Source: Chloranthus sessilifolius
Lineage: Eukaryota; Streptophyta; Magnoliopsida; Chloranthales; Chloranthaceae
NCBI GenBank assembly: GCA_021018995.1
Contig: CM037591.1
Coordinates: 66,987,901 to 67,051,900, forward strand
Reading direction: 5' to 3'
Length of the DNA stretch: 64,000 bases
A model generated the notes under the pieces. The model ran no database searches. It was not told where the DNA came from and was given only the letters and a program-made list of their open reading frames with translations. Positions 72 through 53,646 of the stretch are shown here, one piece after another; position 1 is the first letter of the stretch, and each line of letters opens with the position of its first letter. The position numbers and the translations under genes were made by a program.

Positions 72-1589
72 CTACAGGTATAAAATCAAAATGCAAAATA
101 CATGGGTCTGCTGGGCCCAGCTCTGGCTGCGGTAGTGGCGGCTGTCTTTGGCGGGGTGGTCGGTCAGTGCAGCGTCTCTCTGCTGTGGAGCAGATGTGGA
201 AGGAGCCACGTCTGTGGTGGGATGGAAGACGGGTCCTCGATGGAAGGCGGTGCGTCCGGCCGTCCACTCCTCCTGGGCGAGGTAGCGGTGGTAGTCGGTC
301 GGGTAGATGTGGCGAAGTGTGTGGAACATCAAAAAGTCCATCCGTCGGTTCATCCGCTCGTTGTTGGCCTCCATACGAGCCAACACGTCCTCGATGGTAG
401 GACCGAATGGAGCGGCGCGCCGGCGGTAGGATGAGGTGGGTGTCGCGGGCGCGGAGTAGGCAGGTGGCGTCGGTGAGGCTGCGGTGTGGGAGGGAACCCT
501 CTCCACGGATGGCTCTGCGGGAATAGGGTGTGCCCCACCCACGGGTGGGTCATGCTGAGGTGGTGGGGGTGGTGGCGGTGCTACTGCTGCTGGGGCGGGA
601 GCGGTACCCGGAGCTGGTAGGGTTCGCTTGAGAAGGTTGTAGCTACGGGTCCATGAAGACTTCGTAAACGTCTTCACGCGATCCGTAGCCCTCACCTCGT
701 GAGGTGAGATGGTGTAGGAGGGCTCGTCGGAGTAGCACTCCAACATGCTCGATATAAGGCGAGCACAGGGCATCTTTTCTTTGGGCCTCATGTTGCCCTT
801 CATTAACTTCCCCTTGATGTACTTCATCCCTTCGAGGATGACTAAAGTAGCATCAAACCATCGGCCACAGAAGGCCGCATATAGTGCATGTTGCACTCGT
901 GGGCGCATCGGGTAGAGGTTGCACTTGATTATGGAATCAAGCATCCACATGTAGGGTGGAAGGTCGACCCTCTTAATGGAGGATCCCGACCCCTTCTTCC
1001 CGTTGGTCATACGGGTCATGACCTCCTCAAAGCGGGGGTCTTCCTCAAAGGGTGGGAAAAGAGTGGTCTCCGGGGTGAAATCGAGGTAACACTTGAGTAC
1101 CTCGTGGATGTGGCGACGAGTGATCGTATAGAGACGACCCTCAATCTTGGTTATAATACAATCGTCGATAGGGACATCGGTCAGCCCTTGGTAAAAGAGT
1201 CTAACCAATCTAGGGTAGTAAGAACCCCGGATTGGTTTTAGAAGGTTGCCGAGGCCGGCGTTATTTAGGTAATTTCGAGCCCATTGGGTCTCGCCCGGCA
1301 AATCGGGATTTGTGAATAGGGTAGGGTCGATGATGTATTCGACCTCAAAGGTCTTTGCCGCCCACCATTCATTTGGTTGCTCGACATTGGTGGGTGGTGG
1401 TGGCATGGGGGTGGATTCGCGGGAAGACTCGCGCATAGACGCGCTCGTCGAACCGGAGGTGGTCTCCGATTCCGACGGCGATGGAGTCCTCACCGGCGAT
1501 GGGGTAGGTGGTGGTGGCGCAGCGTTCTTACGCCTAACCGGCAACTTAGAAGTCGCCTTCTTTGAAGATAGACAGGTTTTGGGCGGCAT
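72..1589 (-). CDS. Additional ORF downstream of pol in chromovirus A, intact, 505 aa
   Basis: This is an uninterrupted frame in the same sense as gag and pol, lying between the chromodomain and the 3' LTR. Residues about 1-60 are Ser/Thr/Pro-rich and basic. Residues about 70-330 form a globular region with the landmarks EWWAAKTFEVEYI, ETQWARNYL, RLVRLFYQGL, MWMLDSIIKCNLYP and ARLISSMLECY. Residues about 345-400 are Pro/Ala-rich, followed by a helical stretch DVLARMEANNERMNRRMDF. The globular part resembles what plant annotations call putative plant transposon protein (from memory, not searched). It is not an env: I see no signal peptide or fusion region. Elements B and D have homologues at the same place. 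A TATA box lies about 210 bp upstream and a palindrome array just beyond it, so it probably has its own promoter. Function is unknown; a DNA-binding or anti-silencing role is inferred only from context. Confidence 0.75.
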   Translation of the reverse strand: MPPKTCLSSKKATSKLPVRRKNAAPPPPTPSPVRTPSPSESETTSGSTSASMRESSRESTPMPPPPTNVEQPNEWWAAKTFEVEYIIDPTLFTNPDLPGETQWARNYLNNAGLGNLLKPIRGSYYPRLVRLFYQGLTDVPIDDCIITKIEGRLYTITRRHIHEVLKCYLDFTPETTLFPPFEEDPRFEEVMTRMTNGKKGSGSSIKRVDLPPYMWMLDSIIKCNLYPMRPRVQHALYAAFCGRWFDATLVILEGMKYIKGKLMKGNMRPKEKMPCARLISSMLECYSDEPSYTISPHEVRATDRVKTFTKSSWTRSYNLLKRTLPAPGTAPAPAAVAPPPPPPPQHDPPVGGAHPIPAEPSVERVPSHTAASPTPPAYSAPATPTSSYRRRAAPFGPTIEDVLARMEANNERMNRRMDFLMFHTLRHIYPTDYHRYLAQEEWTAGRTAFHRGPVFHPTTDVAPSTSAPQQRDAALTDHPAKDSRHYRSQSWAQQTHVFCILILYL

Positions 1590-1796
1590 TCTTAGAAAAT
1601 CTAGGGTTTATCTAGTTCAAATTTGAAGAAAAGTGCGAAATTAGGGTTTACCGTAGGTTTTGATGGCGATGAGAGCCGAAAACCGCCGGAAAAAGGGAAC
1701 CCTAGGGCACCAGATTGTCGGAGAAGAGGAAGAAGGTGAAACGCCTAAAAATCTCAAGCAAAAATAATTTCGAATGGGGAATGAAATCCCCAAATC

Positions 1797-1806
1797 TTTA
1801 TATATA
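1797..1806 (-). promoter_or_regulatory. TATA box for the extra ORF of element A
   Basis: On the minus strand the sequence TATATATAAAG lies about 210 bp upstream of the extra ORF start and immediately downstream of the palindrome array. Elements B (37952) and D (49863) have a TATA box in the same relative position. Confidence 0.6.
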
Positions 1807-1814
1807 GGCCACGG

Positions 1815-2450
1815 CTCGATTAATCGAAATTCAGAATCGATTAATCGAGATTCAAAACTAAGTTAAGCCGCGTAAAATCGATTAATCAATTTCCCAAATC
1901 GATTAATCAAAAGTCAAATTCGATTAATCGAAACCATTTCGATTAATCGAAATCGTATCTGTTTAAAATTTTCAATTTTTGAGCTCACTGGCGTGAGCCA
2001 GTCGATTAATCGAAATCCTTTTCGATTAATCGAAATTCCAAAATCGATTAATCGAATTTAATTTCGATTAATCGAAATCGTGCTGTAACTTCTAATTTTC
2101 CAAAATTTCTTAAATTATTCGATTAATCGAATCCATTTCGATTAATCGAAATTTCGAAATCGATTAATCGAAATCCACTTCGATTAATCGAAATCGTCCA
2201 TTTGATTTCAAATTCTCGTAAGTCCTTTTAGTAAATCGATTAATCGAAAAATAATTCGATTAATCGAAATTTCAAAATCGATTAGTCGATTCCAAATCGA
2301 TTAATCGAGATTCCAATTCGATCAATCGAAATTGGTCTTCTATGTATATTCTAACTCTCTTTTAAATTTCGATCATCCTTTGGCACATGCGTCGACTAAT
2401 CGAAAAATCGATTAATCGAAATTCCAAATCGATTAATCGCGATTAATCGG
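1815..2450. repeat. TCGATTAATCGA palindrome array upstream of the extra ORF (A)
   Basis: About 18 exact CGATTAATCG cores, plus one-base variants, occur in about 640 bp at irregular spacing. Most extend to the 12-base palindrome TCGATTAATCGA. The intervening sequence is not repeated, so the motif itself is the unit and not a longer tandem monomer. The array separates pol from the TATA box of the extra ORF. Confidence 0.9.
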
Positions 2451-2658
2451 TTTTTGCCAATTCTGCAGAATTTCAATCTCTTTGTTTCTTTGATTTCTTT
2501 TGGTAGTTTATGACATCAAGTGGTTCATCCATAGAGTTGTATATACTTGATCATGTACGTATAATTCTGTTCCTCAAATCAGATTGGATCAAAATTTTCC
2601 ATTGAATTACAAGTATAGTGGAGGTTTCACAGACATGTTTGTGGTTTACATTAAGTTC

Positions 2659-5600
2659 TCACGTCGTTGGAAACAAGGCTGGATATTGTTCTTTCACATC
2701 GGCCTCTCGTTCCCAAGTAGCCTCTTCTTTTGGGTGATTATTCCACCGAACAAGCACTAAGGGAACCACTTTAGTCGTGATACTTGTTCCTTTCGATCCA
2801 AGATTTCCACTGGTTCCTCTATCATGCTCATGTCCTCACACATCTCTATAGGTTGCTTTCCTAATACATGAGACGGATCGTTCACATACTTTCTGAGCAT
2901 CGATATGTGGAAAACATTATGTACTCGATCAAATAGCGGTGGTAAACCAATGCGATATGCAACTTCACCTACTCGTCCCAAAATTTCAAATGGTCCAACA
3001 TAACGTGGACTTAACTTCCCTCTCTTGCCAAATCTCATTACACCTTTCATAGGTGACACTTTCACAAACACATGCTCGCCCACTTTATAGTCAACACTAG
3101 TCCGCTTCATATCGTAACTTTTACATCTACTCTATCTTTGTCTTCAACCTTTCTCGATAATTCGGACAACGGTGGCGTTGTCTTCAAGCGATTCGGTCCT
3201 AATACAAATTTCTCACTGTTTCCTCCCAATTGAGGGGTGACTTGCATAAATCGTCCATCTGAGCTTCATACGGTGCCATGCCAATGCTCGTTTGAAACTG
3301 TTGTTGTATCTGAACTTCGAGCATCGGTAGTTAGTCATCGGTATCCTTGCATATCAAGCATGCATGCCCCGAGCATGTCTTCTATTACTTAGTTCACTCG
3401 CTCTCGCCCGCCCATCGGTTTGAGGATGGAAAGAACTAAAGTCTAGTCGTGTTCCCATTCCTTCTTGAAATTTCTTCCAAAACTTGGACATATATAGTGA
3501 TCACGATCCGAAACTATCTTGGAATACCATGTAATCTTACAATCTCCTTCATGTATAAATCGCGATCTTCTGCCAGTATCGTAGTATTATACAAAAAGTG
3601 CTATTGATGGTCAATTGGTCTACGACGACCCAAATGGCATTGTGTCTCTTGGCAGTACGGGGTAATCCAACAATGAAGTCCATTGAGATCGATTCCCACT
3701 TCCATTCTGGTATTGGTAAAGGTTGCAATAGTCCAGCAGGATGTCTATGATCAACCTTCACCTGCTGACAAGTCAAACATCGTGACACATACTCGGCCAC
3801 GTCTTGTTTCAGTCCTCTCCACCAGTAGTTCTTTTTCAAATCTTGGTACATTTTGGTGCTACCAGGGTGGATAGCATAATTTGACTTATGGGCCTCATCA
3901 AGAATCGTTCGTCTTAGGTCGACATTGTCCGGAATGCATAGACGGCCCTTAAACAATAAAGAACCATCTTCTTTTAATGAGAAGTCCGACCTAATGCCTT
4001 CACTCACGTCTTGATGAATCTTTATTAATGCCAGATCTTTCATCTGTAGATCGTGGATATGTTCAAATATCACTGGCTTTACTGATATGTTAGCCAAAAA
4101 GGATCCAGTGTCCTTTGACTCAATGTTCGCATCATAGAATGTCAGGTCTTCCAATAATTTCCATCGGTGCATACCCAAAATCAAAGAAGCTAACTGAGCT
4201 GAACCCTTCCGACTCAATGCATCGGCTACTACATTCGCCTTGCCAGGATGGTATTGTATGGAGCAATCATAATCCTTGAGGAATTCCATCCATCTGCGCT
4301 GTCTCATGTTGAGCTCCTTCTGTGTGAATAGGTATCGGAGGCTCTTATGATCGGTGAAAATTTCGAAGGTCTCACCATACAAGTAATGTCTCCAAATCTT
4401 TAGTGCAAAAATGACTGCTACCAGTTCCAAGTCATGAGTCGGGTAATTTTTCTCGTGTTCTTTCAACTGTCTTGATCCGTAAGCTATCACCTTCTTGTGT
4501 TGGTTGAGCACACAACCAAGGCCATTGTATGACGCGTCGCTGTACACAACGTATCCTCCACTGCCTGAAGGAATCGCTAATACTGGAGCCGAAGTGAGTC
4601 TTGTTTTGAGTTCTTGAAAGCTCTTCTCGCATGCCTCACTCCACTCAAACCTTGAATCTTTTCGTGTCAGCTTTGTGAGAGGTCCCGATATCTTTGAAAA
4701 CCCCTCAACGAAACGTCGATAATAGCCTGCTAAGCCCAGAAAACTTCGAACATCGGTCACTGTCTTTGGCTGCTCCCATTTAACTACTGCTTCTATCTTT
4801 GCTGGATCTACAGTGACACCATGCTTTGAGACAACGTGTCCCAAAAAGCTAACTTCTTCCAACCAAAATTCACACTTGTTGAGTTTGGCGTACAATTGGT
4901 GTTCACGTAGCGTCTGTAGAGCAATCCTCAAATGTTCTTCGTGTTCTGTCTTGGATTTGGAGTATATCAGTATATCATCAACAAACACTACGACGCAGGA
5001 GTCCAAGTGTGGTTTAAACACTCGGTTCATCAGATCCATAAACGACGCCGGAGCATTCGTTAATCCAAACGGCATCACAAGGAATTCATAGTGTCCATAC
5101 CGTGTCCGGAAAGCTGTCTTCTGAATGTCCTCTGCTTTGACTCGCAACTGATGATACCCAGATCTCAGGTCGATCTTGGAAAAATACTTTGCTCCTTGTA
5201 GTTGGTCGAATAGATCGTCAATTCTAGGCAAAGGGTAGCGGTTCTTCACAGTGAGTTTGTTCAATTGTCGATAGTCAATGCATAGCCGCATTGACCCATC
5301 CTTTTTCTTGACAAACAAGACCGGTGCTCCCCATGGAGATACACTTGGTCTAACAAATCCCTTGTCCATAAGCTCTTGTAGTTGTTCCTTTAATTCCTTT
5401 AACTCAGCGGGAGCCATTCTATAAGGTGCTTTCGAAATAGGCTCCGTTCCTGGTGCTAAGTCAAAGGCGAATTCTACTTCTCTTTCTGGAGGTAATCCAG
5501 GCAATTCCTCTTGAAACACGTCAGCGAAGTCTCGCACAACTGCTATCTCAGAAATGACATTCTTTTCTTCCTTGTCCTCCTTTAAGAAAGCTAAGTATCC

Positions 5601-6047
5601 ACTGCAACCCTTTCTGATCATTTTCTCGGCCCTTACTGCTGAGATCAGTGGCACAGATGACGACCTCACTCCTTGAAACCGAAATGATCTTCTTGTGTTG
5701 GGTTTGAAAATGACTACCTTGTTCTTACAATCGACGGTCGCACAATGCTGCGCCAACCAGTCCATGCCAAGGATCACATCAAACCCTTGCATGTCTAACA
5801 GTATCAACTTTGCTTCTAGTTCATGCACCTCTAAGTCTCGAACTGCTACAATGATAGATTTGCAAGCTAACTCCGTGTCTACTAACTCTCCAAATGGAAT
5901 AGACACTGATAGGACAAAATCCAACGTCTCAAACAATCTTCATCTTCTTAAAGCGTGGAGTGACGAATGAGTGGGTAGACCCGGGGTCTATCAACACTCG
6001 AGCGTCATAACCACCGAAACATCCTTTTTCATATATATTTAGAGTAC
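2659..6047 (-). pseudogene. pol of chromovirus A (protease, RT, RNase H, integrase, chromodomain), frameshifted
   Basis: The main open part is 5936-3549. A DPGS-type aspartic protease site lies just upstream at about 5980 and LGMDWLA follows in the open part. RT carries the FVDD catalytic motif in [11 protein letters not shown]. RNase H includes [13 protein letters not shown] and ADALSRK. The integrase zinc region contains HKSNYAIHP and CLTCQQVK, followed by MDFIVGLP. The frame is lost near 5940 and again between about 3600 and 3110. The integrase C-terminus and chromodomain resume at 3110-2659 (EEPVEILDRKEQV and EEATWEREADVKEQYP), ending at a stop at 2661-2659. It would be joined to gag by removal of the intron at 6048-6215. 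Confidence 0.88.
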
Positions 6048-6215
6048 CTATAGTATACATACATACATACAATAATTTACACATCAATTTACACTCTTAA
6101 TTCACATACAACTTTTTGTATTGAGAAAAGAATCTATACAATTCTAACACATGCTTCTCTCTATCTAAAATCTTAATGAAATGAAAATTTTCTTTAATTT
6201 TTAAAAGGGTCTCAC
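6048..6215 (-). other. Gag-pol intron of element A (168 nt)
   Basis: On the minus strand gag runs to CAAG, then GTGAG opens the intron, which closes with CTATAG before GTACTC. Joining gives a GGT codon and continues in the frame that leads into the protease [10 protein letters not shown]. The unspliced frame instead continues to a stop at 6097. The same donor, acceptor and phase are seen in C, B, D and E. Splicing is inferred from sequence only. Confidence 0.75.
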
Positions 6216-7614
6216 CTTGGATGACGTCATGCACGTTCCCTGCTTCCTGAGCAGTGACTGCATAGGCTCTCCCCTGAACGATCGGTTTCCTTGCTTGAAT
6301 TGGTCGTGGTGCTGCAACTGAAACCGTCTTTCTCTTATCCGTCTCGGGGCAATCCTTGATCAAGTGCCCCACCTTGCCACATCCGAAACAGCCCCTAGTT
6401 CCCCATCTACAGTCCACCGTCCTATGAGGCTTGCCACACTTTGCGCAAGTCTCCCGAGGTGCGGAAGAAACAGTACGAGAACCCTGTGTGATAGTGGCGC
6501 CAGTAGACATGGCAGGGCTCTCATAGCGAATAGGTCTCCCCGACGCAAGTAATGGAAACCTCTGTTGGTGTTGTTGTTGCTGTTGCGCCGGTCTTCCGAA
6601 ACCCCCTTGAAACTGTGGTCTCTGATTTTGGGCCATGAACCTCGGCTTTTTGTTCACCGGTTCGTAGTGCCCCGATCTTCCTTGTTCATTTCCTCCTCTC
6701 TGCTGCTCCCTCTGTCTATATCTATTTGTATTCTCCTCTTCAGCCACGGGTGCTTTACTCATGACCTCTTCATAGGTCCTCAGTTGAAATGGAGCTACGC
6801 CTCCCCTAACTTCAGGCTTCAAACCTTGCTGAAACCTCTTGGACTTCATCACTTCAGTAGCGACGTAATCCGGAGCAAAACGGGCAAGTCGTAGAAACTC
6901 TACCCCGTATTCTCTCACTGTCATTCTCCCTTGTACTAACTGCAAAAATTGTATCTCAAGCTGGTTCCTCACCACTTCTGGAAAATATTGTTTGTTGAAC
7001 TCCTCAACAAACTCCTCCCAAGTCCAAGGCAACTCTGGGGTCTCCTGAGCCCGAGTCCGTATCACGGACTTCCACCAAGGCCCAGCCTCCCCATCCAACA
7101 TGTAAGCTGCCCATCTTACACTCTCATCTTCCGTGCAAGTTAGCACGCTAAAGACTTTCTCCATCTCCATCAACCAGTTCTCAGCGGCCATTGTGTCTGC
7201 CTGCCCAGAAAATGAAGGAGGTCTCATCCTCCTAAACTCTGTAAATGATGAGGGCACAGGCAACGCAGGTCCTACAGGTGGTGTAGGTGGCTGCTGTTCT
7301 CTTGATGCATGAGCTGCAAAGGATGCGGCTTGTTGTGCCATGGCAGCTGCCATAGTCTCCATAGTGTGCATCATCCTTTGTCGCTCCTCTCTATCTTCTT
7401 GTCTTTCTCTCAATCTTTCTTGCTCTCTTAGATCTTGATCCTGATGATCTCGATCCTCTTCATTATGCTGTCTACTACTACTGCCCCCTGGGGCCTCAGT
7501 ACCTCCTAAAGGCACTCTATTTGTAGGAGAGATGTAATCATCTCCACTACGTAGACTCCTCTGATGGCCTCCCCTTGGTCGGCCTCTTCCTCTAGACGAC
7601 ATTTGCGGCTGCAT
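6097..7614 (-). CDS. gag: gag of chromovirus A, intact
   Basis: The 505-codon frame starts MQPQMSSRGRGRPRGG, an Arg/Gly-rich basic start. A charged coiled stretch with MMHTMETMAAAMAQQAA follows. The retrotransposon gag capsid region at about residues 125-290 includes ENWLMEMEKVFSVL, VRWAAYMLDGEAGPWW and EEFNKQYFPEVVRNQ. Near residues 400-430 a CAKCGKPHRTVDC segment precedes the CCHC knuckle CFGCGKVGHLIKDC. The last 40 or so residues are intron sequence read through, so the spliced Gag-Pol form would leave gag at 6216. It encodes the particle structural protein of the retrotransposon. The start was chosen as the first ATG after the primer site, conserved in C and D. Confidence 0.9.
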   Translation of the reverse strand: MQPQMSSRGRGRPRGGHQRSLRSGDDYISPTNRVPLGGTEAPGGSSSRQHNEEDRDHQDQDLREQERLRERQEDREERQRMMHTMETMAAAMAQQAASFAAHASREQQPPTPPVGPALPVPSSFTEFRRMRPPSFSGQADTMAAENWLMEMEKVFSVLTCTEDESVRWAAYMLDGEAGPWWKSVIRTRAQETPELPWTWEEFVEEFNKQYFPEVVRNQLEIQFLQLVQGRMTVREYGVEFLRLARFAPDYVATEVMKSKRFQQGLKPEVRGGVAPFQLRTYEEVMSKAPVAEEENTNRYRQREQQRGGNEQGRSGHYEPVNKKPRFMAQNQRPQFQGGFGRPAQQQQQHQQRFPLLASGRPIRYESPAMSTGATITQGSRTVSSAPRETCAKCGKPHRTVDCRWGTRGCFGCGKVGHLIKDCPETDKRKTVSVAAPRPIQARKPIVQGRAYAVTAQEAGNVHDVIQGETLLKIKENFHFIKILDREKHVLELYRFFSQYKKLYVN

Positions 7615-7704: not shown

Positions 7705-9164
7705 CTGTGACAGCCCGGATTTCGGCACCCCGAAACCCGTGCCATCAGCACGATCATCTTGACCGTGCCCCTTAGCTAAGCACTAACACCGGTATATCAA
7801 GCATTGCAATAAAATAATAAACGAAATTGCGAATTTGAATCTATATTAATTAACTCCAAAAGACTTCTACCCTCATGCCTCTACATGAATGGAGTCCCGA
7901 TCCGCACCATCGATGATAGCAATCATCACGGATGGTTCGCCCCAACAGAATAATCCCCTCCATATATTTATACATGGTTTAAACAGAATCAAGTCTTGAG
8001 ATACCAAGCCGCATAAAAACTCTCTCCAAAATCCTCAAAGTGGCACAACTGAGTCCTCTAGAAGAAGTCCTCGGAGGTGGCTCCACCGCAAGGTCCACTC
8101 ACGGGATCGCCTCCTCAAGCCTCACGAGCCTCGCTAGTAGTGGACTGCGTATAGTCTATAGGGTAGGCTACATCCTAGCTCAATAGGGAACAAACACGGT
8201 TGAACATATAAATTATAACTCACATATATTCCATGATATGCCATGCATGAAGTATCTATGCAGTTGTTAATGAAACAGTTAAAAAGCATTTCGTTTTACT
8301 GTTGATTACTTATATTTTCATTTACTCATGAATGATGCTGAAAAGGCCTAAAGCAAAACTTAAACTTTCAACTTAAGTAATCCCCGAGCAATATAGCATC
8401 GAGCCCCGATGAGATACCCATCATCGTCATCTATATAGACAGTTTTAACCGTATTCCCTGGGAATACCAATAGTACCCAAGCCCCTTTCCCCTGGGGATT
8501 GGTGGCGGGGTTTCACTTGTCTCAATTAACACCCCTGGGGTGTGCTTACTATGTACGGATAAGCCTCCGCACTGGCCTACGGTTTCGCCGCCGTATCGGT
8601 CACGGATATCCTGCCGTGTCAGTCGTGGATATCCCGCCACGTCGGTGGGGTACCCTATCAAACCTCAAATAACAAAAATATCGGTGCCTTACATATAGTT
8701 ATTCACCGTGTAAATGTGCTATCTTATATCAGCTAGGCCCTATCAAACATGATTCAATCCTTGGATACATCCCTGGGATGTATCCATTTACTTGCATCAC
8801 ACCTGATGCTCTCATATCTTTATTTCTTCATCCCCTGGGGATGGCTTATTAGAATTTCTCTTATGGATGTCATACGCACACACACTTTTCACAATTCTTA
8901 AGCAATTAAACATTTGAATGGAAATCTATATCACTACATACATGCTCTTGTAAAATAAAGTACATGTTCAAGGTGTTTCCTACCTCAAGTCTTCATTTGA
9001 TCAATGCATCAAGGTCCCACGTGGCTTCTTGTGTACTAGTCCACACGTACCACCTATGGTACCACATAACAGGTGAAACACATCACAAAGGATGCAATAA
9101 AGAAGGTATAAGACCCTCCAAGAATCTTAAAGTCAAACCCAAAAGTCAACATAATCTATCTCAG

Positions 9165-9720
9165 TCGATTAATCGAATTCCAAAATCGATTAATCGAAGG
9201 TCAATATCGATTAATCGAAGTAATTTCGATTAATCGAATTTCTCTGTTTCGCAAAGTCGATTCTCAGTTCGAACAGTCGAGCTTACATTCGATTAATCGG
9301 ATCCAATTTCGATTAATCGAAATTCTCCTTTTCGCAAGGTAGACTCACAGTTCGAACAGTCGAGTTTTCATTCGATTAATCGAATCCAATTTCGATTAAT
9401 CAAAATTCTTCTTTTCGCAAAGTCGACTCTCAGTTCGAACAGTCGAGTTTCACAAGTTGATTAATCGATCCCAAATCGATTAATCAAAAACTAAAATCGA
9501 TTAATCGAAATCCCATTTCGATTAGTCGATTTTCCTCAAATCATTTCCTCCAACCAGGGTCCACTTTGGAGGTTCTCGATCGATTAATCGATCCCCAAAT
9601 CGATTAATCGAAATCCAAAGTCGATTAATGAAATCAAATTATAATCCTCGACCTTTCAACTTCGGCCAATTTCGATTAATGAAACCCAATTTCGATTAAT
9701 CGAAATTGTCGATTCAACTT
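9165..9720. repeat. TCGATTAATCGA palindrome array in LTR of A
   Basis: More than a dozen TCGATTAATCGA-type palindromes and variants lie about 500-1100 bp downstream of the TATA box. A second recurrent string, CAGTTCGAACAGTCGA, appears three times among them (9266-9445). Confidence 0.88.
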
Positions 9721-9993
9721 CATTTGTTCTTCCCAATCTTCTTCCATACTTTTTCCTCTATTTTTCTAAGCCATTATCCTATGATTTAACCCACATTCAA
9801 TCACAGCTTAACCCCTATAATCTATGCATTTTATTTACAAAAATTTTACCTTGAATAGATCTCAAGTTGATTTCAATCAAATAGTTGGAAGGCTAGGGTT
9901 TCCAGCTTTGGCTCTAACAGATCCAAATCGCGTTGAATCCGGCTTTTATCTCTTAAATCCCCCCTCCAATTAGTTGCAATAACTCCTCTCTTA

Positions 9994-9997
<4 letters not shown>

Positions 9998-10026
<29 letters not shown>
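9998..10026. repeat. (CT)n microsatellite in LTR leader
   Basis: About 14 CT units lie just downstream of the LTR TATA box on the minus strand. The LTRs of B, C and D have shorter GA-rich runs at the same position. Confidence 0.9.
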
Positions 10027-10029
<3 letters not shown>

Positions 10030-10298
10030 TTACTCTCCTTCAACAACCAAAATACACCTCTAGGGTTATTAAACCCTTTTATCCCTTTTCTCACTTGTGT
10101 GTTGAGCACATATACCGCGGTAGGTATATGCGACTTCTCATTTACATCACACACCACATAATCACTCAAACTATCACATCTCGTCCGTTCATCACATTCT
10201 ATGCTAACTCATGATCTCCTGATTGGTCAAACTTGTGACCAATCGGGCACGGATCCCGAGGTCATAGTTTAGCGTGATTTTTTTTTCGGGCTATTACA

Positions 10299-11201
10299 CT
10301 CCTGTCATTAATCTATACTGCATGACCACTCCTTGGCTATTTGCTACCTGGGGTTTGGACTGATATTAGAATGATTAATCCAAAAGCCTCAAATGGACAT
10401 CGGTTCATCCTCGTCGCCATCGAGTATTTTACTAAGTGGGTAGAGGCAGTGTCATATGCTAACATCATGGCCGATCACGTCGAGAAGTTTTTCAAGAATA
10501 AGATTGTCTGCCGATTTGGAGTACCCAAAGATATCATCACGGACAATGGTACCAACTTTGCGAATAAGCGCATCTGAGCCTTCTGCGAGCAATACAAGAT
10601 CAAGCACCATCGCTCGCCACCTTATCGGCCTTAAACTAATGGAGCCGTAGAAGCTGTGAATAAAATGATCATCCGCATCCTTGAGAAGATGGTGGTCACA
10701 AACCGAGATTGGAGTGAAATGTTACCATTCGCATTGTGGGCCTACAGGGCGTTGATCCGTACCGCTATATGGGCAACACCATTCTCCCTTGTGTATGGAA
10801 CCGAGGTCGTCTTGCCAGTTGATGTTGAAGTACTCTCGCTCTGAATCCTCCTTGAATCAGGCTTACCCGAAGCGGAGAGAGAGAGATCTCGCTTTGATCA
10901 ATTGAATCTGCTGGATGAGAAAAGGCTCCTAGACTTGTGTCATACCCAAGTTTATCAGGGGCGAATCACACATACTTACAATAAACGTGTCTGCGATCAA
11001 GATCTGAAGGTAGGAGACACCGTGCTGAAGATCTTCCCATCCCTCCACGTCGATCAAAGGGGAAAGTTTAAGCCTAATTAGGAAGGGCCTTACGTCATTC
11101 GGGAGGTGCTTCCTAGATATGCCATCCGCCTCGCCACCATGGATGGAGCTCACTTTCTTGAGCCCATCAATGTTGGATATGTCCGGCGGTTTTATTCTTA
11201 G
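10299..11201 (+). pseudogene. Tat-like integrase, C-terminal two thirds
   Basis: A single plus frame can be followed with several in-frame stops, for example near 10575, 10634, 10842 and 11080. Landmarks are NGHRFILVAIEYFTKWVEA, FGVPKDIITDNGTNF and NGAVEAVNKMI in the catalytic core, then LPFALWAYRA and TPFSLVYGTEVVLPVDVE. The C-terminal part has GDTVLKIFPSL and GPYVIREVLPRYAIRLATMDG. It ends at a stop at 11199-11201. There are no frameshifts that I can see, only nonsense changes. Confidence 0.88.
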
Positions 11202-20815: not shown

Positions 20816-21025
20816 TGTAATAACCTAAAAAAATTACGTTAAATGGTGACCTCAGGATCCGTGCTCGACGGGTCGTAGGTTTGACCAAGTAGGAGTCCAC
20901 TAGTTGACTCGAGGAGTGATGAACGGATGCGATGTGAAATTAAAGCAAACGTGTGGAGTGTGAGGTGAGATCTGGAACCACATGCACCCATCTGGGGTGT
21001 ATGTGCTCAACACATAGAAAATGAG

Positions 21026-21032
21026 TATAAAA
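21026..21032 (+). promoter_or_regulatory. TATA box of LTR C
   Basis: TATAAAA about 210 bp from the LTR start. The corresponding sites are 29781 in B and 42427 in D. Confidence 0.65.
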
Positions 21033-21404
21033 GGGTTAAAGAACCCTAAATTACTCTTGTTTGATTGTTGAAGAGAGTTAAGAAGAGAGAGAGAGGGAGA
21101 GAAGTAAAGAGGGGTTGTTGTGCAAGGAGTGAATGCAAGCCAAGAGGGGATTCGAGCATTTAAGGCAGGATTCGACGTGAGGGATCCGCTAGAGACAAAG
21201 CTGGAACCCTAGCCTTTCCAACCTCTTGATCCAATCAAATTGAGAATTGATTGAGGTAAATTTTGTTGAATTAAAGGCATAGATTGTAGAAGTTTAATGG
21301 TGGTCAAAAACATTTAAAATCATAGGATAAAGGCTTAGAAAAAGAAAGAAAATTATTTGAGAAGGATTTGGAAGAACAACCCGAAAAGGGGGCTGAGTCT
21401 GGCC

Positions 21405-21875
21405 AAATCGATTAATCGATTTGAGATTTCGATTAATCGATTTGGTCTAAGAAGTTGAAAAGTCATGAAAGCCCGATTTCGATTAATCGATTTAGATTTC
21501 GATTAGTCGATTTGGAAATCGACTAATCGACTAAGAAGCTCCAACCACTGGAGGAAAGTAACCTGGTGAAATTGACTAATCGAATTGGAATTTCGATTAA
21601 TCGATTTCGGATTTCGATTAATCGATTTGGGATCGATTAATCGATTTGGGATCGATTAATCGATTTTGTGATTTTGATTACTGTATTTGAGAATTGACTC
21701 CATTATGTTAGAGACATCGATTAATCAATTTGGGATCGACTAATCGAATTTGAATTTCGATTAATCGATTTTGAGAATCGATTAATCGATTTGGGTTTCG
21801 ATTAATCGATTTTGGGAATCGATTAATCGAATTGCACTTCGATTAATCGATTTTGGGAATCGATTAATCGACTTT
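21405..21875. repeat. TCGATTAATCGA palindrome array in LTR of C
   Basis: About 13 exact CGATTAATCG cores and several variants (GATTAGTCGA, GACTAATCGA) with irregular spacing. It lies downstream of the TATA box and of the first donor-like site. Confidence 0.9.
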
Positions 21876-22920
21876 GACAGTTTTGCTTAAACTTTATAAT
21901 TGACTTTGAGATTCAGGGAGAGTCTTGGACCTTCTTTGTTACATCTTTAGTGATGAGTTATATGTGTTATGTTGTACCATAGGTGGTACGTATGTTCATG
22001 AGCACAAGGAGCCGCGTGGGACCTTGATGCTAGGAGTTTCAAAGACTTGAGGTAGGGAACAGCTTGAACATGTACTTTAATTTCAAGAGCATGTATGTAG
22101 TGATATAATTATTAAATTGAAGTCGTTTTAAATCATGAAAATCTTTATGAAAATGGGTGTGTGTGTGACACCACGAATGTGATACGGACATTTGTGTGAT
22201 GCAAGTGATTAAGAATCAGTAAATTAATAAGATTGAGACATCCCCAGGAGATGAGAAAGTAATAAAGGCATCAGGTGTGATGCGGGTATGTATACATCCC
22301 AGGGATGTATGTATATGATTGAATAATTATTGTTGAGGCCTAACTGATATAAGATAGCACACTTACACGGTGAACAACTATATGTAAAGCACATGTTATT
22401 TTTGTTATTTGAGGTTTGGAGGATACCCCACCGACGTGGCAGGATACCCACGACTGACGCGGCAGGATACCCATGACTGACGCGGCAGGATAACCATGAT
22501 CGGTACGGCGGCGAATCCGTACACCAACATGGAGGTTTATCTATGACCGTAAGTACATCTCAGAGATGTTGTGTGATATTTAACCCCGCCGCCTAGTGAG
22601 AAAGGATCTTGGGTCGTATTCCCAGGGAATATATTTTTACAACTGTCTAATTAGATGACGATGAAGGGTATCTCATCGGGGCTCGATACTATATTGCTCG
22701 GGGATTACTTAAGTTGAAGATTTAAGTTTTGCTTTAGGCCTGTTCAGTGTCATTCATGATTAAATCAACAGTAATGTAATACATGCAACTTACCAGTAAA
22801 TTGAGTGTAAATCATCTGCTTTTAAATTGATTTTCTAGTAAATACATAGATTCATCATGCTTTGAATATCATGAAATATATGTGAGTTTTGATTTATATG
22901 TTCATTGTGTTATTCCCTAT

Positions 22921-22939
22921 TGAGCTAGGATGTAGCTCA
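22921..22939 (+). other. Conserved LTR hairpin
   Basis: TGAGCTAGGATGTAGCTCA is a 7-bp stem with a 5-base loop, about 20 bases upstream of the acceptor-like CGTCGCAG. Equivalent stems occur in B (about 31608), D (43998 and 53501), A and the solo LTR (62288-62307). Confidence 0.7.
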
Positions 22940-22960
22940 CCCTTTAGACTATACGTCGCA

Positions 22961-23065
22961 GATCCACTGATAGCAGCAGCGGAGGCTTTGGGAGATGTGG
23001 ATCCGAGTGATTCGGATTATGTACCTGGAGACGAGTTGGAGCCTCCTCCCGAGGACTTCTTCTAG
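22961..23065 (+). other. Conserved acidic 34-codon frame in LTR (C)
   Basis: The frame reads LGDVDPSDSDYVPGDELE then PPPEDFF and a stop. The same 105-nt frame is open at 31642-31746 (B) and 53542-53646 (D 3' LTR) with mainly third-position changes between C and D. It has no ATG of its own and follows an acceptor-like AG, so it could be a terminal coding exon. Function unknown. Confidence 0.55.
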
Positions 23066-23522
23066 GTGACTCTGCTGAGCACTTTGATAGAGAGTCAGTT
23101 TTGTGAGCAGATTAGTGCGGCTTGGTAGTCAAGCCTTTATTTTTGAAACAATATAATTAAACTAGATTATTCTTTTGGCGAACCATCTGGGGTGATCTGA
23201 TTATCACCGATGGTTCGGGTCGGTTCTCTATTCATGTAGTGGCATGAAAGTAGAACTGTCTTTTGAATATGCTAGTTGGGCATATTAACGTTTTCTGCTT
23301 TAATGAGATTAATTGCTTTATTTATTAAGTGGGGCTTGTTATACCAATGTTCTGTGCTAAGCTTTGGGGCACGGTCTGGAGGATCGTATTGATGGCACAA
23401 GTTTCGGGGTGCTGAAATCCGGGCTGTCACAGTTGGTATCAAAGCGATTTCTTTTAGAAACTTTGACAATCATTCTTTTGTCAGAGCATAGAGACTTCTG
23501 CTAATGAAAACTTTGTTTTCAC

Positions 23523-28959: not shown

Positions 28960-29567
28960 TAGCTCGACTGTGCTCACGAGTTGGTCAGTTATACTCTGGG
29001 TCTTTTAGTGTCATTATAGTCACTGTCCCTTTTTCTTCATCAGTTTGAGTCTTTGCCCATTAACCTTAAAAATACGATTGTCACTGGGATCTTGAATGGT
29101 TACAGCCCCATGAGGGAATGCTTCCACAACATTATAGGTCCCAACGACTTTATAGTTTTCCTGGGAATAGTTCAACCTAGAATTATATAATCAAACTTGT
29201 TGGCCTGGCTCAAACCTTTTTCTCAAATTGTTTTTATCATGAAATGCCTTGGTTTTGGCCTTATGGATTCGAGCATTTTGGTATGCATCATTTCAAATTT
29301 CCTCAAGCTCATTGAGTTCGAGTTTTCATTGCTTACCATATCCATCCAATTCAAAATTCAATGCTTTAATAGTCCATAGAGCTCTATGTTCTAATTTCAC
29401 AGGGAGGTGGCAAGCCTTATCATACACCAATCGGAAAGGAGAAATGCTAATGGGAGTTTTATAAGCTGTTCTATATGCCCACAGAGCATCGTTCAATCTT
29501 ATGGACCAGTCCTTTCTATCAGGTAGAACTATTCTTTCCAATATCTTTTTTATTCCTCAATTGGAAA
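28960..29567 (-). pseudogene. Athila-like integrase, C-terminal half
   Basis: On the minus strand [20 protein letters not shown] and [19 protein letters not shown] are typical of the Athila integrase core end. Further on FPHGAVTIQDPSDNRIFKVN and GQRLKLMK mark the C-terminus near 29040. It is cut at 29567 by the LTR of element B and broken by frameshifts. Confidence 0.85.
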
Positions 29568-30149
29568 TGTAATATCTCGAAAAATTGATCGTTTGACTTT
29601 GACCTCGAGATCCGTGCCCGATTGATCGTAGGTTTGACCAAGTGATGGTCAAACATTGAGTTCATGAAGTTATGTACTAATGTGAGATTAGTGTGACCTA
29701 AGTGTAGAGTATTGGGTGAAGTTGCAGTCACATACACTTATCTTTTGTGTATGTGTTTAACACACAAGGCCAAGAGAGGATATAAGGGTTTTAATAACCC
29801 TAGTTTCTTTTTGCTTTAGTTATTGAAGAGAGAGTTAAGAGGAGAGAGAGAGGAGTAAAGGGGAGTTATGGAGGCTAGAAGCTAGTGCAAATCAAGAGGA
29901 GGAGCTAGCATTAATTGTCGGATTCAAAGCGATTTGGGATCGTTGAAGCAAGTGATGGAACCCTAGCCATCAAACCCAACAAATCAATCCCTTGAAGGGA
30001 TTATCGAGGTGAGTTTTAATTAAAGTGAATGCATATATTATAGACAAGTTTAATTCAGTCAATATAGTTTAAAAAGGATAGAATAAAGGCTTAGAAAAGA
30101 AGGGAAAAGATTTGGAAGAATAGCCAGAAAGGGGGCTGAATCTAGCCAA

Positions 30150-30580
30150 ATCGATTAATCAAAATTGGGATTCGATTAATCGATTTTGGCCCAGAAGTTG
30201 AAGAGTCATGAAAGCCCGATTTCGATTAATCGATTTGGATTTCGATTAGTCGATTTGGAAATCGACTAATCGACTGGGTACCTCCAGTGGCTGGAGAAAA
30301 GAGACTTGGAGAAATAGACTAATCGAGTTGGAAAATCGATTAATCAATTTTAGTTTTCGATTAATCGATTTGGGATTGACTAATCAATTTCAGACTTTCG
30401 ACCACTCGATTTGAGAATCGACCTTAGTATGTTAGAGATTTTGATTAATCGATTTAGGATCGATTAATCGAATTTGAATCTCGATTAATCAATTTTGAGA
30501 ATCGATTAATCGATTTTGGGAATCGATTAATCGATTTGTGTTTCGATTAATCGATTTTGGGAATCGATTAATCGACTTTG
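30150..30580. repeat. TCGATTAATCGA palindrome array in LTR of B
   Basis: About ten TCGATTAATCGA palindromes with one-base variants; homologous to the array of C but with gains, losses and changed copies. Confidence 0.9.
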
Positions 30581-31641
30581 ACAGTTTTGCTTAATTTTCT
30601 TAGTTTTCTTTGAGATTCATGGAGGGTCCAGGACCTTCTTCATTACATCTTTAGTGATGTATTGTGTGTATTGTGATGTACCATAGGTGGTACGTGTGAA
30701 AGCGAGCACAAGGAGCCGCGTGGGACTTTGATGCTTGGACCATCAAAAAATTGAGGTAGGGAACACCTTGAATATGTACTTTAATTTCAAGAGCATTTAT
30801 GTAGTGATATAATTATAAGATTTGAAGTTGTTTTAACTATGAAAAGCTTTGTGAAAATGGGTACGTGTGTGACACCAAGAATGTGATAAAGGCATCTGTG
30901 TGATGCAAGTAATTAAGAACAAGTAATCTAATGAGATTGAGACATCCCCAGGGGATGAGAAAGTAATAAAGGTATCAGGTGTGATGCGGGTATGTATACA
31001 TCCCAGGGATGTATGTATATGATTGAATAATTACTGTTGAGGCCTAACTGATATAAGATAGCACACTTACAAGGTGAATAACTATATGTAAAGCACATAT
31101 TAGTTTTATTATTTGAGGTTTGATAGGATACCCCACCGACGTGGCGGGATACCCACGACTGACGCAGTAGAATATCCGTGACCGGTACGGCGGCCAATCC
31201 GTATATCAGTGCGGAGGTTTATCCGTAACAGTAAGCACATCCCAGGGATGTTGAGATGAGTTTTTAACCCCGCCGCCTAGTGAAAAGGGTCTTGGGTCGT
31301 ATTCCCAGGGAATACTTTATAACAACTGTCTATTTAGACGACGATGAAGGGTATCTCATCGGGGCTCGATGCTATATTGCTCGGGGATTACTTAAGTTGA
31401 AGATTTAAGTTTTGCTTTAGGCCTGTTCAGTGTCATTCATGATAAATCAACAGTAAAGTAAGACATAAATTACCAGTAAATCTTGAATGCAATTACCATC
31501 TTTTGAACTGTTTTCTAGCTAATGCATAGACACATCATGCTTAGAGTATCATGGAATATATGTGAGTTTTAACTTATATGTTCATAGTGTTTGTTCCCTA
31601 TGGAGCTAGGATGTAGCTCACCCTTTAGACTATACGTCACA

Positions 31642-31746
31642 GGTCCATTGATAGCAGCTGTCGTGGCTTCGGGAGACGTAGATCCGGGTGATTCGGATTA
31701 CGCACCTGGAGACGAGTTAGAGCCTCCACCCGAGGACTTCTTCTAG
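31642..31746 (+). other. Conserved acidic 34-codon frame in LTR (B)
   Basis: GDVDPGDSDYAPGDELE then PPPEDFF and a stop, same length as in C and D. It follows the acceptor-like CGTCACAG. Confidence 0.55.
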
Positions 31747-32210
31747 GAGACTCTGCTGTGTACTTTGACAGAGAGTAGTTTTTGAGAACAGATTGTGAGG
31801 CTTGGTATGTCAAGCCTTTATTTTGATAAACATGTAATTAAATTGGATTATTCTTTTGGCGAACCATCTGGGGTATTCTATTTATCACCGATGGTTTGGG
31901 TCGGTTCTCTGTTCATGCAGTGGCATGAAAGTAGAACTGTCTTTTTGCTTAGCTAGTTGGGCATATTAACTGTTTCCGCTTTATGAGATTATTGGCTTTA
32001 TTTATTTAATTATGCTTGTTAAACTAATGTTCCGTGCACAGTTTTGGGGCACGGTCTGAAGGATCGTGTTGATGGCATGGGTTTCGGGGCACTGAAATCT
32101 GGGCTGTCACAGTTGGTATCAGAGTATTTTCTTTTAGAAACTCTGACAATCTTTTGATAGAGCATAGGGACTTTTGCTAATTAAAACTTCGTTTTCACGT
32201 GCAGACCATT

Positions 32211-37384: not shown

Positions 37385-37940
37385 CAAAATCGATTAATCG
37401 ATTAATCAATTTGGAAATTCGATTAATCGATTTTGGTCGATTAGTCGACTGGCATGTGCCAGTGACTGGAAATTTGATAGGGATTCAGAAAAATGACAAA
37501 GTGAAATTTTGATTAATCGACCTGGGTTTTGATTAATCGATTTATGATTTTGGTTAATCGATCTGGGGATTCGATTAATCGAGTAACTTAAGGAATTTAG
37601 AAAATTTTGAAGCGTGATATACGATTTCGATTAATCGAACTGGAGGTTCGACTAATCGAGTCACTTAATGAATTTGGGAAAAATTTGAAGGACCTCACGA
37701 TTTCAACTAATCGAATTAAAATTTGATTAATCGATTTTAGAATTTTGATTAATCGACTGGCTCACGCCATTGAGCTCTAAAACTTAAAAATTTAAACGGA
37801 TACGATTTCGATTAATCGAAATGATTTTGATTAATCGATTTTGAGTTTCGACTAATCGATTTTGGAAATCGATTAATCGATTTCGTGCGGCTTAACCAAG
37901 TTTTGAATCTCGATTAATCGACTTCGGAAATCGATTAATC
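37385..37940. repeat. TCGATTAATCGA palindrome array upstream of the extra ORF (B)
   Basis: At least a dozen TCGATTAATCGA-type motifs and variants lie between the chromodomain end and the TATA box. The spacers differ from those in the LTR array, although both contain a GAGCTC/GGCTCA-type segment or a CCAGTGGCTGG segment. Confidence 0.9.
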
Positions 37941-37951
37941 GAGCCAGAGCC

Positions 37952-37963
37952 TATATATATAAA
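37952..37963 (+). promoter_or_regulatory. TATA box for the extra ORF of element B
   Basis: TATATATATAAA about 10 bp after the last palindrome and about 240 bp before the extra ORF start. Confidence 0.6.
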
Positions 37964-38190: not shown

Positions 38191-39633
38191 ATGCCGCCTA
38201 AAATGCGGTTGTCTTCGAAGAAGGCAACCTCTAAGCTTCCGGTCCGGCATAAGAACACCGCACCGCCACCACCTACCCCATCACCGGTGAGGACTCCATC
38301 ACCGTCGGCATCGGAGACCACCTCCGGTTCGACGAGCGCGGCTTCGCACGAGTCTTCAGGCGAGTCTACGCCCATGCCACCACCACCCACCAATGTACTT
38401 CAACCCAACGAGTGGTGGGCGGCTAAGACCTTTGAGATCGAGTACATCATCGATCAAACCCTATTCACAAACCCCGATGTATCGGGTGAGACCCAATGGG
38501 CTCGTAATTACCTTCAAAAGGCCGGTCTCGGCAACCTTTTGAAACCAATCCGTGGGTCCTACTACTCTCGATTGGTTCGTTTATTCTACCAAGGGCTAAC
38601 GGACGGCCCTACCGACGATATTATTTTGACCAAAATAGAGGGTCGCGACTACACATTCACCTGTCGCCACATCCATGAGGTTCTTGAATGTTACCTCGAC
38701 TTCGTACCCGAGACCACCCTCCTTCCACCCTTCGAGGAGGAGGTGAGATTTGAGGAGATCATGACCCGCATGACCAACGGGAAGAAGGGGTCGGGATCCT
38801 CCATTAAAAGGGTCGACCTTCCCCACTACATGTGGATGCTTGATTCGATAATCAAGTGCAACCTTTACCCACTGCGCCACGACACTGAGCGGGTAGAGAA
38901 AGTGTAACAGGCACTCTATGCAGCCTTTTGTGGCCGTTGGTTTGACGCCACGATGCTCATCCTAGAGGGGATGAGGTATATCAAGGGCAAGTTGATGAAG
39001 GGCAACTTGAGGCCTAAAGAAAAGATGCCTTATGCTCGGCTCATCTCGAGCATGCTGGAGTGCTATTCCAACACTCCATAATACACCATATCACCCCACG
39101 AGGAGAGGGCAACGAACCGAGTGAAGACGTTCTCGAACTCTTCATGGAGCCGTAACTACAACCTACTAAAGCGGACCCTACCGGCTTCGGGTCCCGCACT
39201 ACCAGCAGCAACACCAGTGGCACCACCACCACCCCCACCACCACATCAGGACCCACCCATGGGTGGGGCACACCCGGTTGAGCCACCAGCAGAGGGGGCA
39301 CCCTCCCATACAACCGCTTCACCTATGCCGCCAGCGCAGTCCGCGGCAGCTACACCTACTTCTTCATATCGCCGGTGAGCGGCTCGCCAGGCTCCGACGA
39401 TAGAGGACGTGTTGGCTAGGATGGAGGCCAACAACGAGCGGATGAACCGGCGAATGGACTTTCTGATGTACCACACTATGCGGTACATCTATCCGTTGGA
39501 TTATCAGCAACCCCTAGCTCAGGAGGAGGCATGGACGATAGGTCGGATCGCATTCCACATGGGTGCCATCTTCCATGCGAGCACATCGGCTGTCGATGCA
39601 TCTGGCTCGGTGCCACCGCAGCAAAGCCTATGA
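38191..39633 (+). pseudogene. Additional ORF of chromovirus B, three in-frame stops
   Basis: It starts MPPKMRLSSKKATSKLPV and remains in one frame to 39633, with stops at 38905, about 39079 and 39376. It aligns along nearly its whole length with the intact 505-aa protein of element A: NEWWAAKTFEIEYIIDQ, ETQWARNYLQ, RLVRLFYQGL, MWMLDSIIKCNLYP, a Pro-rich stretch, and DVLARMEANNERMNRRMDF. The absence of frameshifts suggests fairly recent loss. Confidence 0.8.
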
Positions 39634-49000: not shown

Positions 49001-49475
49001 AAAGACTAAAGGTGGCTCAAAGTAGACAGAAAAGCTACGCTGACATCAAGCGAACGAGCTGGACTTTAAGGTGGGAGAACATGTTTTCATGAAGGTGTCG
49101 CCTATGAAAGGCGTGATGAGGTTCGGAAAGAGAGGCAAGCTGAGTCCCCGCTACCTTGGACCGTTTGAAGTTTTGGGTCGAGTAGGAGAAGTAGCCTACC
49201 GCGTTGGATTGCCACCATTGTTTGATCAGGTACACAATGTATTCCACGTGTCTATGCTCAGGAAGTATCTCAATGATCCTGATCATGTACTGAGCGGCCA
49301 ATCATTCGAGATGCATGAAGATATGACCATGATTGAAGAGCCGGTGGAAATTTTAGATCAAAAGAAACAAGTGTTGCGAACAAAGGTTATTCCCTTAGTG
49401 CTTGTCCGATGGAAGAACCATCCGGTCGAAGAAGCAACATGGGAACGGGAGGTCACGCCAAAAGAACAAGACTAA
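46098..49475 (+). pseudogene. pol of chromovirus D, frameshifted
   Basis: Open from 46100 to 47290: protease ([21 protein letters not shown]) and RT with FVDD. A one-base loss near 47253 shifts the frame. RNase H is degraded at 47385-47900. The integrase is readable from 47905 (ADALSRKSS, HKSSYAIHP) with a stop at 48310, and from 48520 (DGQTERVNQ). It breaks again near 49060 before the chromodomain (EPVEILDQKKQVLRTKVIPL, EEATWEREV) and the stop at 49473-49475. Confidence 0.88.
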
Positions 49476-49704: not shown

Positions 49705-49860
49705 CTTGGCTCGCTCGAGCGAGGGATAATGACCGCTCGAGCGAGGTCAAGTGACAGCTCGAGCGAGGTTTACCAACCGCTCGAGCGAGGCCATAAATTA
49801 TAACATTTAGCGTCCTGGACTCGCTCGAGCGATAACTAACGACCGCTTGAGCGAGGGCGG
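49705..49860. repeat. CTCGCTCGAGCGAG palindrome array upstream of the extra ORF (D)
   Basis: Six motifs, five with an exact GCTCGAGCGA. Some share the GGTCAAGTGAC spacer with the LTR array. The array ends two or three bases before the TATA box. Confidence 0.9.
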
Positions 49861-53541: not shown

Positions 53542-53646
53542 GGTTCAGGACTAGCGGCAACAAAGACTTCTGGAGACTTTGATCCAGGGGATTCAGACTA
53601 CGTACCCATTGAGGAATCAGAGCCTCCTCCTGAGGAATTCTTCTAG
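53542..53646 (+). other. Conserved acidic 34-codon frame in LTR (D/E)
   Basis: GDFDPGDSDYVPIEESE then PPPEEFF and a stop. Compared with C the codons for Asp, Pro, Ser and Tyr differ mainly at third positions. Confidence 0.6.

Follow-up and report, generated by a model that had tools for sequence, protein, structure and literature searches.

Palindrome arrays paired with PF20167-related accessory genes in plant LTR retrotransposons: candidate self-recognizing regulators

Introduction

The closest described counterpart of the arrangement treated here is found in Sireviruses, which belong to the Ty1/copia retrotransposons. Their long terminal repeats (LTRs) and the region upstream of the envelope-like gene ENV contain arrays of palindromic motifs, which vary by element and were termed Sirevirus-specific (Bousios et al. 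2010, PMC2829016). Copies of the linker motif lie before ENV in 77 of 79 cases, and none occurs in the linker of four ENV-less elements (PMC2829016). The present analysis concerns a stretch of 64,000 nucleotides of Chloranthus sessilifolius (contig CM037591.1, positions 66,987,901 to 67,051,900, forward strand), called the window. Three Ty3/gypsy elements of this window, termed A, B and D, each carry an extra sense open reading frame (ORF) downstream of pol, preceded by a palindrome array and a TATA box. The papers compared here were available in excerpt, and what is said of them refers to those excerpts.

A second parallel is offered by the VANC proteins of VANDAL DNA transposons. These are likewise encoded by the element, and a short motif, differing between related families, is clustered in the non-coding parts of their own family (PMC5735166, PMC10398659). 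VANC contains DUF1985/DUF287, its motif is non-palindromic and kept in the same orientation, and both binding and demethylation have been shown (PMC5735166, PMC10398659), whereas the proteins treated here are PF20167-related, are encoded by retrotransposons with palindromic sites and are known from sequence.

An accessory ORF between pol and the 3' LTR, with a proposed nuclear or DNA-binding role, is also described as gene23 of Grande and TRP28 of Retand; it has its own promoter in Grande, and tandem repeats occur in about half of the Retand elements (PMC7264820, PMC11963269). However, these ORFs are antisense and contain another domain, and the excerpts describe no pairing with palindromes. 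A sunflower Athila ORF comes nearer, being a 3' sense ORF of the PF20167 family predicted to be nuclear, but no array is described for it; sunflower Tekay elements have a 5' ORF that resembles no known domain (PMC11728184).

In the open literature searched, which left most subscription journals and preprints outside its coverage, no work was found that joins PF20167 with palindrome arrays or that reports such arrays in Tekay or Athila elements. Compared to the Sirevirus layout of 2010, the gypsy carriers, the common protein family and the pairing of protein and motif are new. An earlier note on this DNA had regarded array, TATA box and extra ORF as a subfamily-specific module. The module reaches beyond these subfamilies: it occurs in gypsy as well as in copia elements, and the version found in copia had already been described in 2010.

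Array, TATA box and extra ORF in the window

The arrays and extra ORFs of the window and the LTRs of their elements are the following.

72..1589, minus strand: extra ORF of element A, 505 amino acids, weak PF20167 match
1797..1808, minus strand: TATA box upstream of the extra ORF of A, read from the sequence, of putative promoter use
1816..2450, minus strand: internal TCGATTAATCGA array of A, 16 exact copies, 24 sites at no more than 2 mismatches
7941..10301, minus strand: 5' LTR of A, array at about 9165-9703
20816..23178, plus strand: 5' LTR of truncated element C, array at about 21408-21871
29566..31859, plus strand: 5' LTR of element B, array at about 30151-30575
37390..37942, plus strand: internal TCGATTAATCGA array of B, TATA box at 37952-37963
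38191..38907, plus strand: extra ORF of B, broken off after 238 amino acids
39985..42314, plus strand: 3' LTR of B, array at about 40568-41032
42309..44410 (3' limit approximate), plus strand: 5' LTR of element D, CTCGCTCGAGCGAG-like sites at 42799-43042
49710..49855, plus strand: internal CTCGCTCGAGCGAG-like array of D, six sites at a spacing of 22 or 44 base pairs (bp), TATA box at 49863-49869
50074..51201, plus strand: extra ORF of D, 375 amino acids, weak PF20167 match (E 2.2e-7)
51734..53935 (3' limit approximate), plus strand: LTR common to D (as 3' LTR) and element E (as 5' LTR), array at 52224-52557

The layout is the same in A, B and D: pol is followed by the palindrome array, the TATA box, about 200 bp and the ATG of the extra ORF. 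The earlier note had described a palindrome cluster abutting a TATA box some 208-240 bp upstream of the extra ORF in these elements, with the same palindrome clustered again in the LTRs. Both are seen in the sequence, and array sites were located in the LTRs of A to E. Its assignment of one motif to A-C and another to D-E holds as well: the word is TCGATTAATCGA in the former and CTCGCTCGAGCGAG in the latter, where C and E, truncated relatives without an extra ORF in the window, are typed by their LTRs alone. All 63 exact copies of TCGATTAATCGA in the window fall inside the arrays of A-C (16 internal and 10 LTR copies in A, 13 in the LTR of C, 8 + 8 in the LTRs of B and 8 in its internal array). 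At no more than four mismatches, CTCGCTCGAGCGAG sites number 9 in the D 5' LTR, 6 in the internal array and 12 in the D/E LTR. Palindromes of 12 bp of any kind occur 117 times, against a mean of 16.8 and a maximum of 25 in ten simulated windows with matched dinucleotide make-up.

As in Sireviruses, arrays are found both upstream of an envelope-like ORF and in the LTRs of A and D; the further loci described below (types P1-P4) were examined upstream only. The Sirevirus LTR array is closely followed by a TATA box (PMC2829016), but the LTR arrays of A and D are not. The LTR array of D starts about 370 bp past a TATA box at LTR position +118, without the abutting TATA box of the internal arrays, and a second TATA-like word stands at +390 of the 3' LTR, about 100 bp ahead of the array. 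Among 29 A loci with a located LTR start, no TATA position is common to more than a few. The A half-site TCGATT and the D half-site TCGCTC are identical in 4/6 bases, which fits divergence from one site (a chance match has a probability of about 4%, calculated by hand with equal base frequencies).

The extra proteins have diverged far more than pol, again as the earlier note had stated. A and D share 33% amino-acid identity in the extra protein (360 amino acids), compared to 86% in pol (310) and 83% in gag (144). The extra ORF is under purifying selection: the median ratio of nonsynonymous to synonymous substitution rates (dN/dS) is 0.11 in 12 A copies and 0.23 in 12 D copies (66 pairs each), and 0.14 between A and B.

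Pairing of motif and protein across the genome

The genome (2.17 Gb, gigabases; 32 contigs) was searched with both proteins. The A-type search gave 85 best-scoring matches, 65 of them without internal stop, and the D-type search 109 scored matches; 30 loci were fetched for each. A palindromes are present upstream in 30/30 and on the LTR side in 30/30 A-type loci, D palindromes in 28/30 and 29/30 D-type loci, respectively, and crossed pairing was not seen in any of the 60. The arrays are homogeneous: wherever both were observed, the internal and LTR arrays of one element share their type. In the two D-type loci lacking an upstream array, either pol-like sequence leads directly to the TATA box (L020) or unrelated sequence takes its place (L024), and judged from this both have lost the array region. 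The distance from TATA box to ATG is 204-238 bp in 30/30 A-type and 200-272 bp in 28/30 D-type loci, and the gap between the last palindrome and the TATA box is 9-15 bp in 30/30 A-type loci.

The earlier note's proposal that motif and protein change together is supported for A and D: 6122 exact D-D pairs within 30 bp were counted genome-wide (0 in a reversed-pattern control) against 3 mixed A-D pairs. An exception in another pair of clades is taken up below. Two of the three mixed pairs lie at a single site (G000:C13:42322437-42322510) with adjacent A and D palindromes, which could be a recombinant or a nested insertion.

By their sequence, the extra proteins of A and D match Pfam family PF20167 (Transposase_32) weakly and are probably distant relatives of it. 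A genome search with this model gave 150 scored matches, and 20 loci were picked for diversity. Upstream palindrome arrays were found at 19/20 of these loci and fall into four types. P1 comprises 11 loci with ACGGACGTCCGT arrays. P2 comprises five loci with TCGATTAATCGA, mostly in the form GTCGATTAATCGAC, and TCGATGCATCGA also occurs in four of them. P3 is represented by two loci with CTCGCGAG arrays. P4 is a single locus (L072) whose degenerate GTGGTYRACCAC array, with a spacing of about 22 bp, was judged by eye; in ORF orientation (L072 512-630) it resembles a Sirevirus motif of CGGTCGACCG type in which the CpGs have become TpG/CpA. Exact P1-P1 pairs number 1206 genome-wide (0 in the reversed-pattern control), and one mixed A-P1 pair was found. 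The array is absent at L062, where a P1 ORF is fused to copia reverse transcriptase (RT) sequence (RVT_2, E 4e-61); this locus is read as a deletion or template-switch chimera that lost its array.

A motif-free scan, in which a palindromic 10-mer had to recur at least three times within 900 bp upstream, was positive at 67/80 loci, compared with 0/80 for the ORF part and 0/1600 dinucleotide shuffles. The 13 negative loci are six of D type, L062, three P1, the P4 locus and both P3; several of them still carry an array with mutated or shorter sites.

In a tree of 42 proteins, motif type is linked to protein clade: the six motif labels need 5 changes, the minimum, and 0/200 label shuffles reach as low a number, although near-copies in this tree make labels cluster in any case. 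An extra-ORF phylogeny unrelated to motif type, by which the earlier note would have been refuted, was not obtained. A has D as its sister (88/80), P2 joins P3 weakly (93/76), and P1 groups with P4 and is set apart by a branch of its own in 54% of bootstrap trees. A CGG-CCG core is present in P1, degenerate in P4 and absent from A, D, P2 and P3.

Most of the proteins scanned (7/10) exceed the PF20167 cut-off of 45 bits, namely P1 3/3, P4 1/1, P2 2/2 and L077 of P3. In profile comparison A, D, P2 and P3 are mutually linked at 97-100% probability, and P1 and P4 at 99.8%. No homologue of A (best 7996 candidates scored) or D (1475 candidates) was found in the protein database, nor a relative of the D protein in viral contigs. 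A 56-amino-acid match to the A protein on a viral contig with phage-like ORFs was taken as chance. Among the matches listed for the ten scanned proteins, up to E 10, DUF1985/DUF287 did not appear, in a search where the HMMER filters drop most weak matches.

Carriers of the extra ORFs

A gypsy pol with a chromodomain at its integrase end is the mark of a chromovirus. A and D are assigned as chromoviruses because the D pol ends in SH3_Tf2-1 and a weak Chromo match (E 1.9e-4, 21.7 bits at a cut-off of 25.1). The chromovirus type is probably Tekay. The corresponding coding parts are:

3549-5792, minus strand: longest pol ORF of element A, Ty3/gypsy (RVT_1, RNase H, Integrase_H2C2)
6097-7614, minus strand: gag of element A (Retrotrans_gag); gag and pol together span 3549..7614
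49089..49475, plus strand: pol end of element D, with SH3_Tf2-1 and a weak match to Chromo

Element A contains gag, RT, RNase H and integrase (zinc-binding) domains; in element D, RT and protease were recognized.

The P1 type is connected with copia elements. Among the best 150 matches to the RT piece of L062, 57 are followed within 8 kb (kilobases) by a PF20167 match on the same strand, 53 of these at 2.76-3.11 kb; none is preceded by one, and in 4 cases such a match lies within 8 kb on the opposite strand. Conversely, of the 150 scored PF20167 matches, 53 are preceded on the same strand by a scored copia RT at 2-4 kb. Two of the 11 fetched P1 loci, L067 and L068, are included, a count that may miss RTs outside the best 150. 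Another PF20167 match (C1:23872411) has a P1 palindrome pair about 300 bp upstream and an RT 2.9 kb upstream. On this sequence evidence the P1 carriers are Ty1/copia where testable. The SIRE clade is typified by a sense ORF at the 3' side (PMC6317226), and from this together with the CGG-CCG core the P1 carriers are likely Sirevirus-like. The carriers otherwise differ from Sireviruses, since A and D are Ty3/gypsy chromoviruses and P2 is Athila-like while Sireviruses are Ty1/copia (PMC2829016); the motifs of A, D, P2 and P3 are without CGG-CCG and the ORFs are PF20167-related.

The Athila label of P2 rests on similarity and on an integrase signature: three P2 loci (L075, L076, L078) are tblastx-similar to window 29026-29568, and the integrase-like piece upstream of P2 ORFs, which gave no match in Pfam, is presumably of Athila type. 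Within that part of the window the ORF 29326-29556 on the minus strand reads like an Athila-type integrase, again by its signature. Window 10695-11126 likewise shows tblastx similarity to DNA upstream of P2 ORFs.

Neighbouring features

The 3' LTR of B seems continuous with the 5' LTR of D (42309-42314), and the 3' LTR of D doubles as the 5' LTR of E (51734-53935). This tandem B-D-E arrangement suggests recombination or insertion at an LTR end. A GGATACCC/GACGTGGCGG-type LTR block is kept in A-C and D-E despite their differing palindrome arrays, at 69-91% to a reference copy:

22419-22521, 31124-31203, 41582-41661, 43534-43613 and 53049-53128: GGATACCC/GACGTGGCGG-type LTR blocks

A gypsy RT fragment of another element lies at 56630-57235 on the minus strand (RVT_1, E 1.2e-18).

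Spacing and constraint of the palindromes

Spacings of 18-23 bp predominate in the internal (461/617) and LTR (305/449) arrays of A and the internal (103/147) and LTR (112/208) arrays of D; they make up 44/88 in P1 and 41/70 in P2, and P3 is without this preference. Of the first 50 D-D pairs listed (one contig, gaps of 0-30 allowed), 38 have a spacing of 21-22 bp.

With all columns counted, the motifs are as similar between elements (identity 0.924-0.951) as within the LTR pair of one insertion (0.932), and spacer identity falls from 0.942 within the pair to 0.752-0.812 between elements. These are four between-element comparisons with shared elements, and because sites were selected for closeness to the motif, the comparison is biased towards conservation. 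The pattern suggests that active lineages kept the word while their spacers drifted. Motif and spacer differ at A/T columns in 4/4 between-element comparisons (p 1e-5 to 1e-7), and the G/C columns give p 0.016, 0.0006, 0.17 and 0.22. In the within-insertion controls, with A/T and G/C taken apart, p is 1, 0.39, 0.058 and 0.68 (B, A/T: 6/131 vs 10/196, p=1). When CpG columns are omitted, changes between elements number 2-10 of 139-158 in motifs and 58-66 of 273-332 in spacers (p 3e-6 or less). The D pair then shows 0/56 vs 3/144 (p 0.56), the A/T columns of the B pair 1/126 vs 9/195 (p 0.095), and whole LTRs, motif vs rest, 1/134 vs 74/1978 and 0/76 vs 44/1840.

Proposed mode of action and its alternatives

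The reading preferred here, held with nearly as much confidence as doubt, is that the extra protein is a DNA-binding factor that recognizes the palindromes of its own element and is made from a separate gene with its own promoter. In this mechanism the extra ORF would be a separate gene inside the retrotransposon, and its PF20167-related product most likely a nuclear, dimeric, sequence-specific DNA-binding protein. Its targets would be the element's own palindromes, for the most part spaced by 21-22 bp, both in the array that precedes its gene and in the LTRs. Occupancy of many adjacent sites could make the effect specific to one family, and the position of the array just upstream of the TATA box would favour a positive feedback, by activation or by relief of silencing. 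Since each clade keeps its own palindrome, activation would stay within the family. Array, TATA box and ORF form a putative module whose organization fits such a cognate factor. Contact with DNA is indicated indirectly by the palindromes, their preferred spacing, the TATA box next to them in A and D, the way they vary together with the protein and the matching of the two arrays within an element.

Several observations weigh against this reading. No DNA-binding domain was recognized in the extra proteins, and their AlphaFold models, built from three-row alignments, reach a predicted local distance difference test (pLDDT) score of 35, too low for fold searches. The PF20167 scores of A (25.7 bits), D (31.4) and L074 of P3 (42.1) are below the cut-off, and the A/D/P2/P3 and P1/P4 profiles are joined only via the Pfam model (A-P1 probability 20%). 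For both the A-D and the P2-P3 join the tree program warned of a possible long-branch artefact. Within 80 bp past the last site, a TATA[AT]A word was found in 7/19 of the P1-P4 loci with arrays, and the counts for P1 (4/11) and P2 (0/5) are low, with P3 at 2/2 and P4 also having the word; TATTTAAAT was found in 3/5 P2 loci. A putative internal promoter can thus be recognized clearly in A and D and in part elsewhere.

The evidence for constraint is weakened at the same time. With CpG columns omitted the B LTR pair also differs (motif 1/132 vs spacer 16/302, p 0.029), and the motif-to-spacer ratio between elements is not clearly under that of the control. Base composition or the picking of sites may account for some of the difference between elements. 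Constraint on the motifs is supported by the sequence comparisons, not proven, because the B control also differs when CpG columns are left out. CpG protection had been considered as a sign of anti-silencing. It was not seen in the arrays of inserted copies, where CpGs decay about as fast as outside or faster (motif 12/29 and 9/29 vs 20/54 and 12/60), and it was dropped. Helical phasing of longer spacings was likewise rejected: it gave p 0.0015 in the window, but across clades 1014/5000 random sets were as good.

Descent has to be considered as well. Because an element carries both array and ORF, motif and protein would be grouped by co-inheritance alone; common descent explains the pairing in part, and the six clades provide few independent events. 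This leads to the strongest alternative, which we consider unlikely: that the palindromes are enhancer sites of host transcription factors, the extra protein has another, envelope-like or particle role, and the two co-segregate by inheritance. The internal arrays do occupy an enhancer-like position, Sirevirus motifs were matched mainly to stress-factor sites (Bousios 2010, PMC2829016), and grouping by clade is expected from linkage alone. TCGATTAATCGA is moreover common to A and P2 at 29% protein identity, which breaks a simple relation of motif to protein identity, and A and D (33%) differ in motif. However, a host factor gives no reason for a separate site in each PF20167 clade, for the match of LTR and internal arrays in the A and D loci, or for the missing internal array of the ENV-less Sireviruses (PMC2829016).

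It is improbable that the arrays act as RNA, with adjacent palindromes forming hairpins that seed small RNAs and silencing or that serve RNA packaging or dimerization. For 300 nucleotides of the A array the folding energy is -107.4 kcal/mol (z -9.2, 0/200 shuffles as stable), a further point against the DNA-binding reading, and small RNAs of maize Sireviruses are drawn to regions structured by clustered palindromes (Bousios 2016, as cited in PMC10760457). Yet any palindrome array pairs into hairpins, a silencing seed would be expected to be selected against, and the 21-22 bp spacing, the identity of the word and the adjacent TATA box in A and D are left unexplained. Very improbable is a protein that binds the array as a repressor to control copy number, or that tethers its own cDNA or acts as a tether in integration: it would share the same anatomy, LTR arrays away from the TATA box and the predicted nuclear signal of the sunflower Athila ORF (PMC11728184), but the sites in A are upstream of the TATA box, not over it, and a repressor should not need some 20 of them.

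Implications

The preferred reading, a factor recognizing its own element's palindromes, has a wider form that we hold with clearly more doubt than confidence. The so-called envelope-like genes from three or more lineages (Sirevirus-like in copia, Athila-like and chromovirus in gypsy) would then be one family of self-recognizing DNA-binding regulators, each with its own palindrome arrays beside the gene and in the LTRs. This would be a counterpart of VANC, a cassette moved or kept across superfamilies and carrying a private activation code. In plant LTR retrotransposons, 3' sense ORFs have long been regarded as envelope-like although a convincing role was lacking, and no binder of the Sirevirus palindromes is named in the papers compared here. 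Both puzzles would receive a single testable answer if proteins of one family recognize their own palindromes in several lineages. Plant retrotransposons would gain an element-specific regulator comparable with VANC, and their proteins and arrays would provide natural protein-site pairs for studying how DNA specificity changes.
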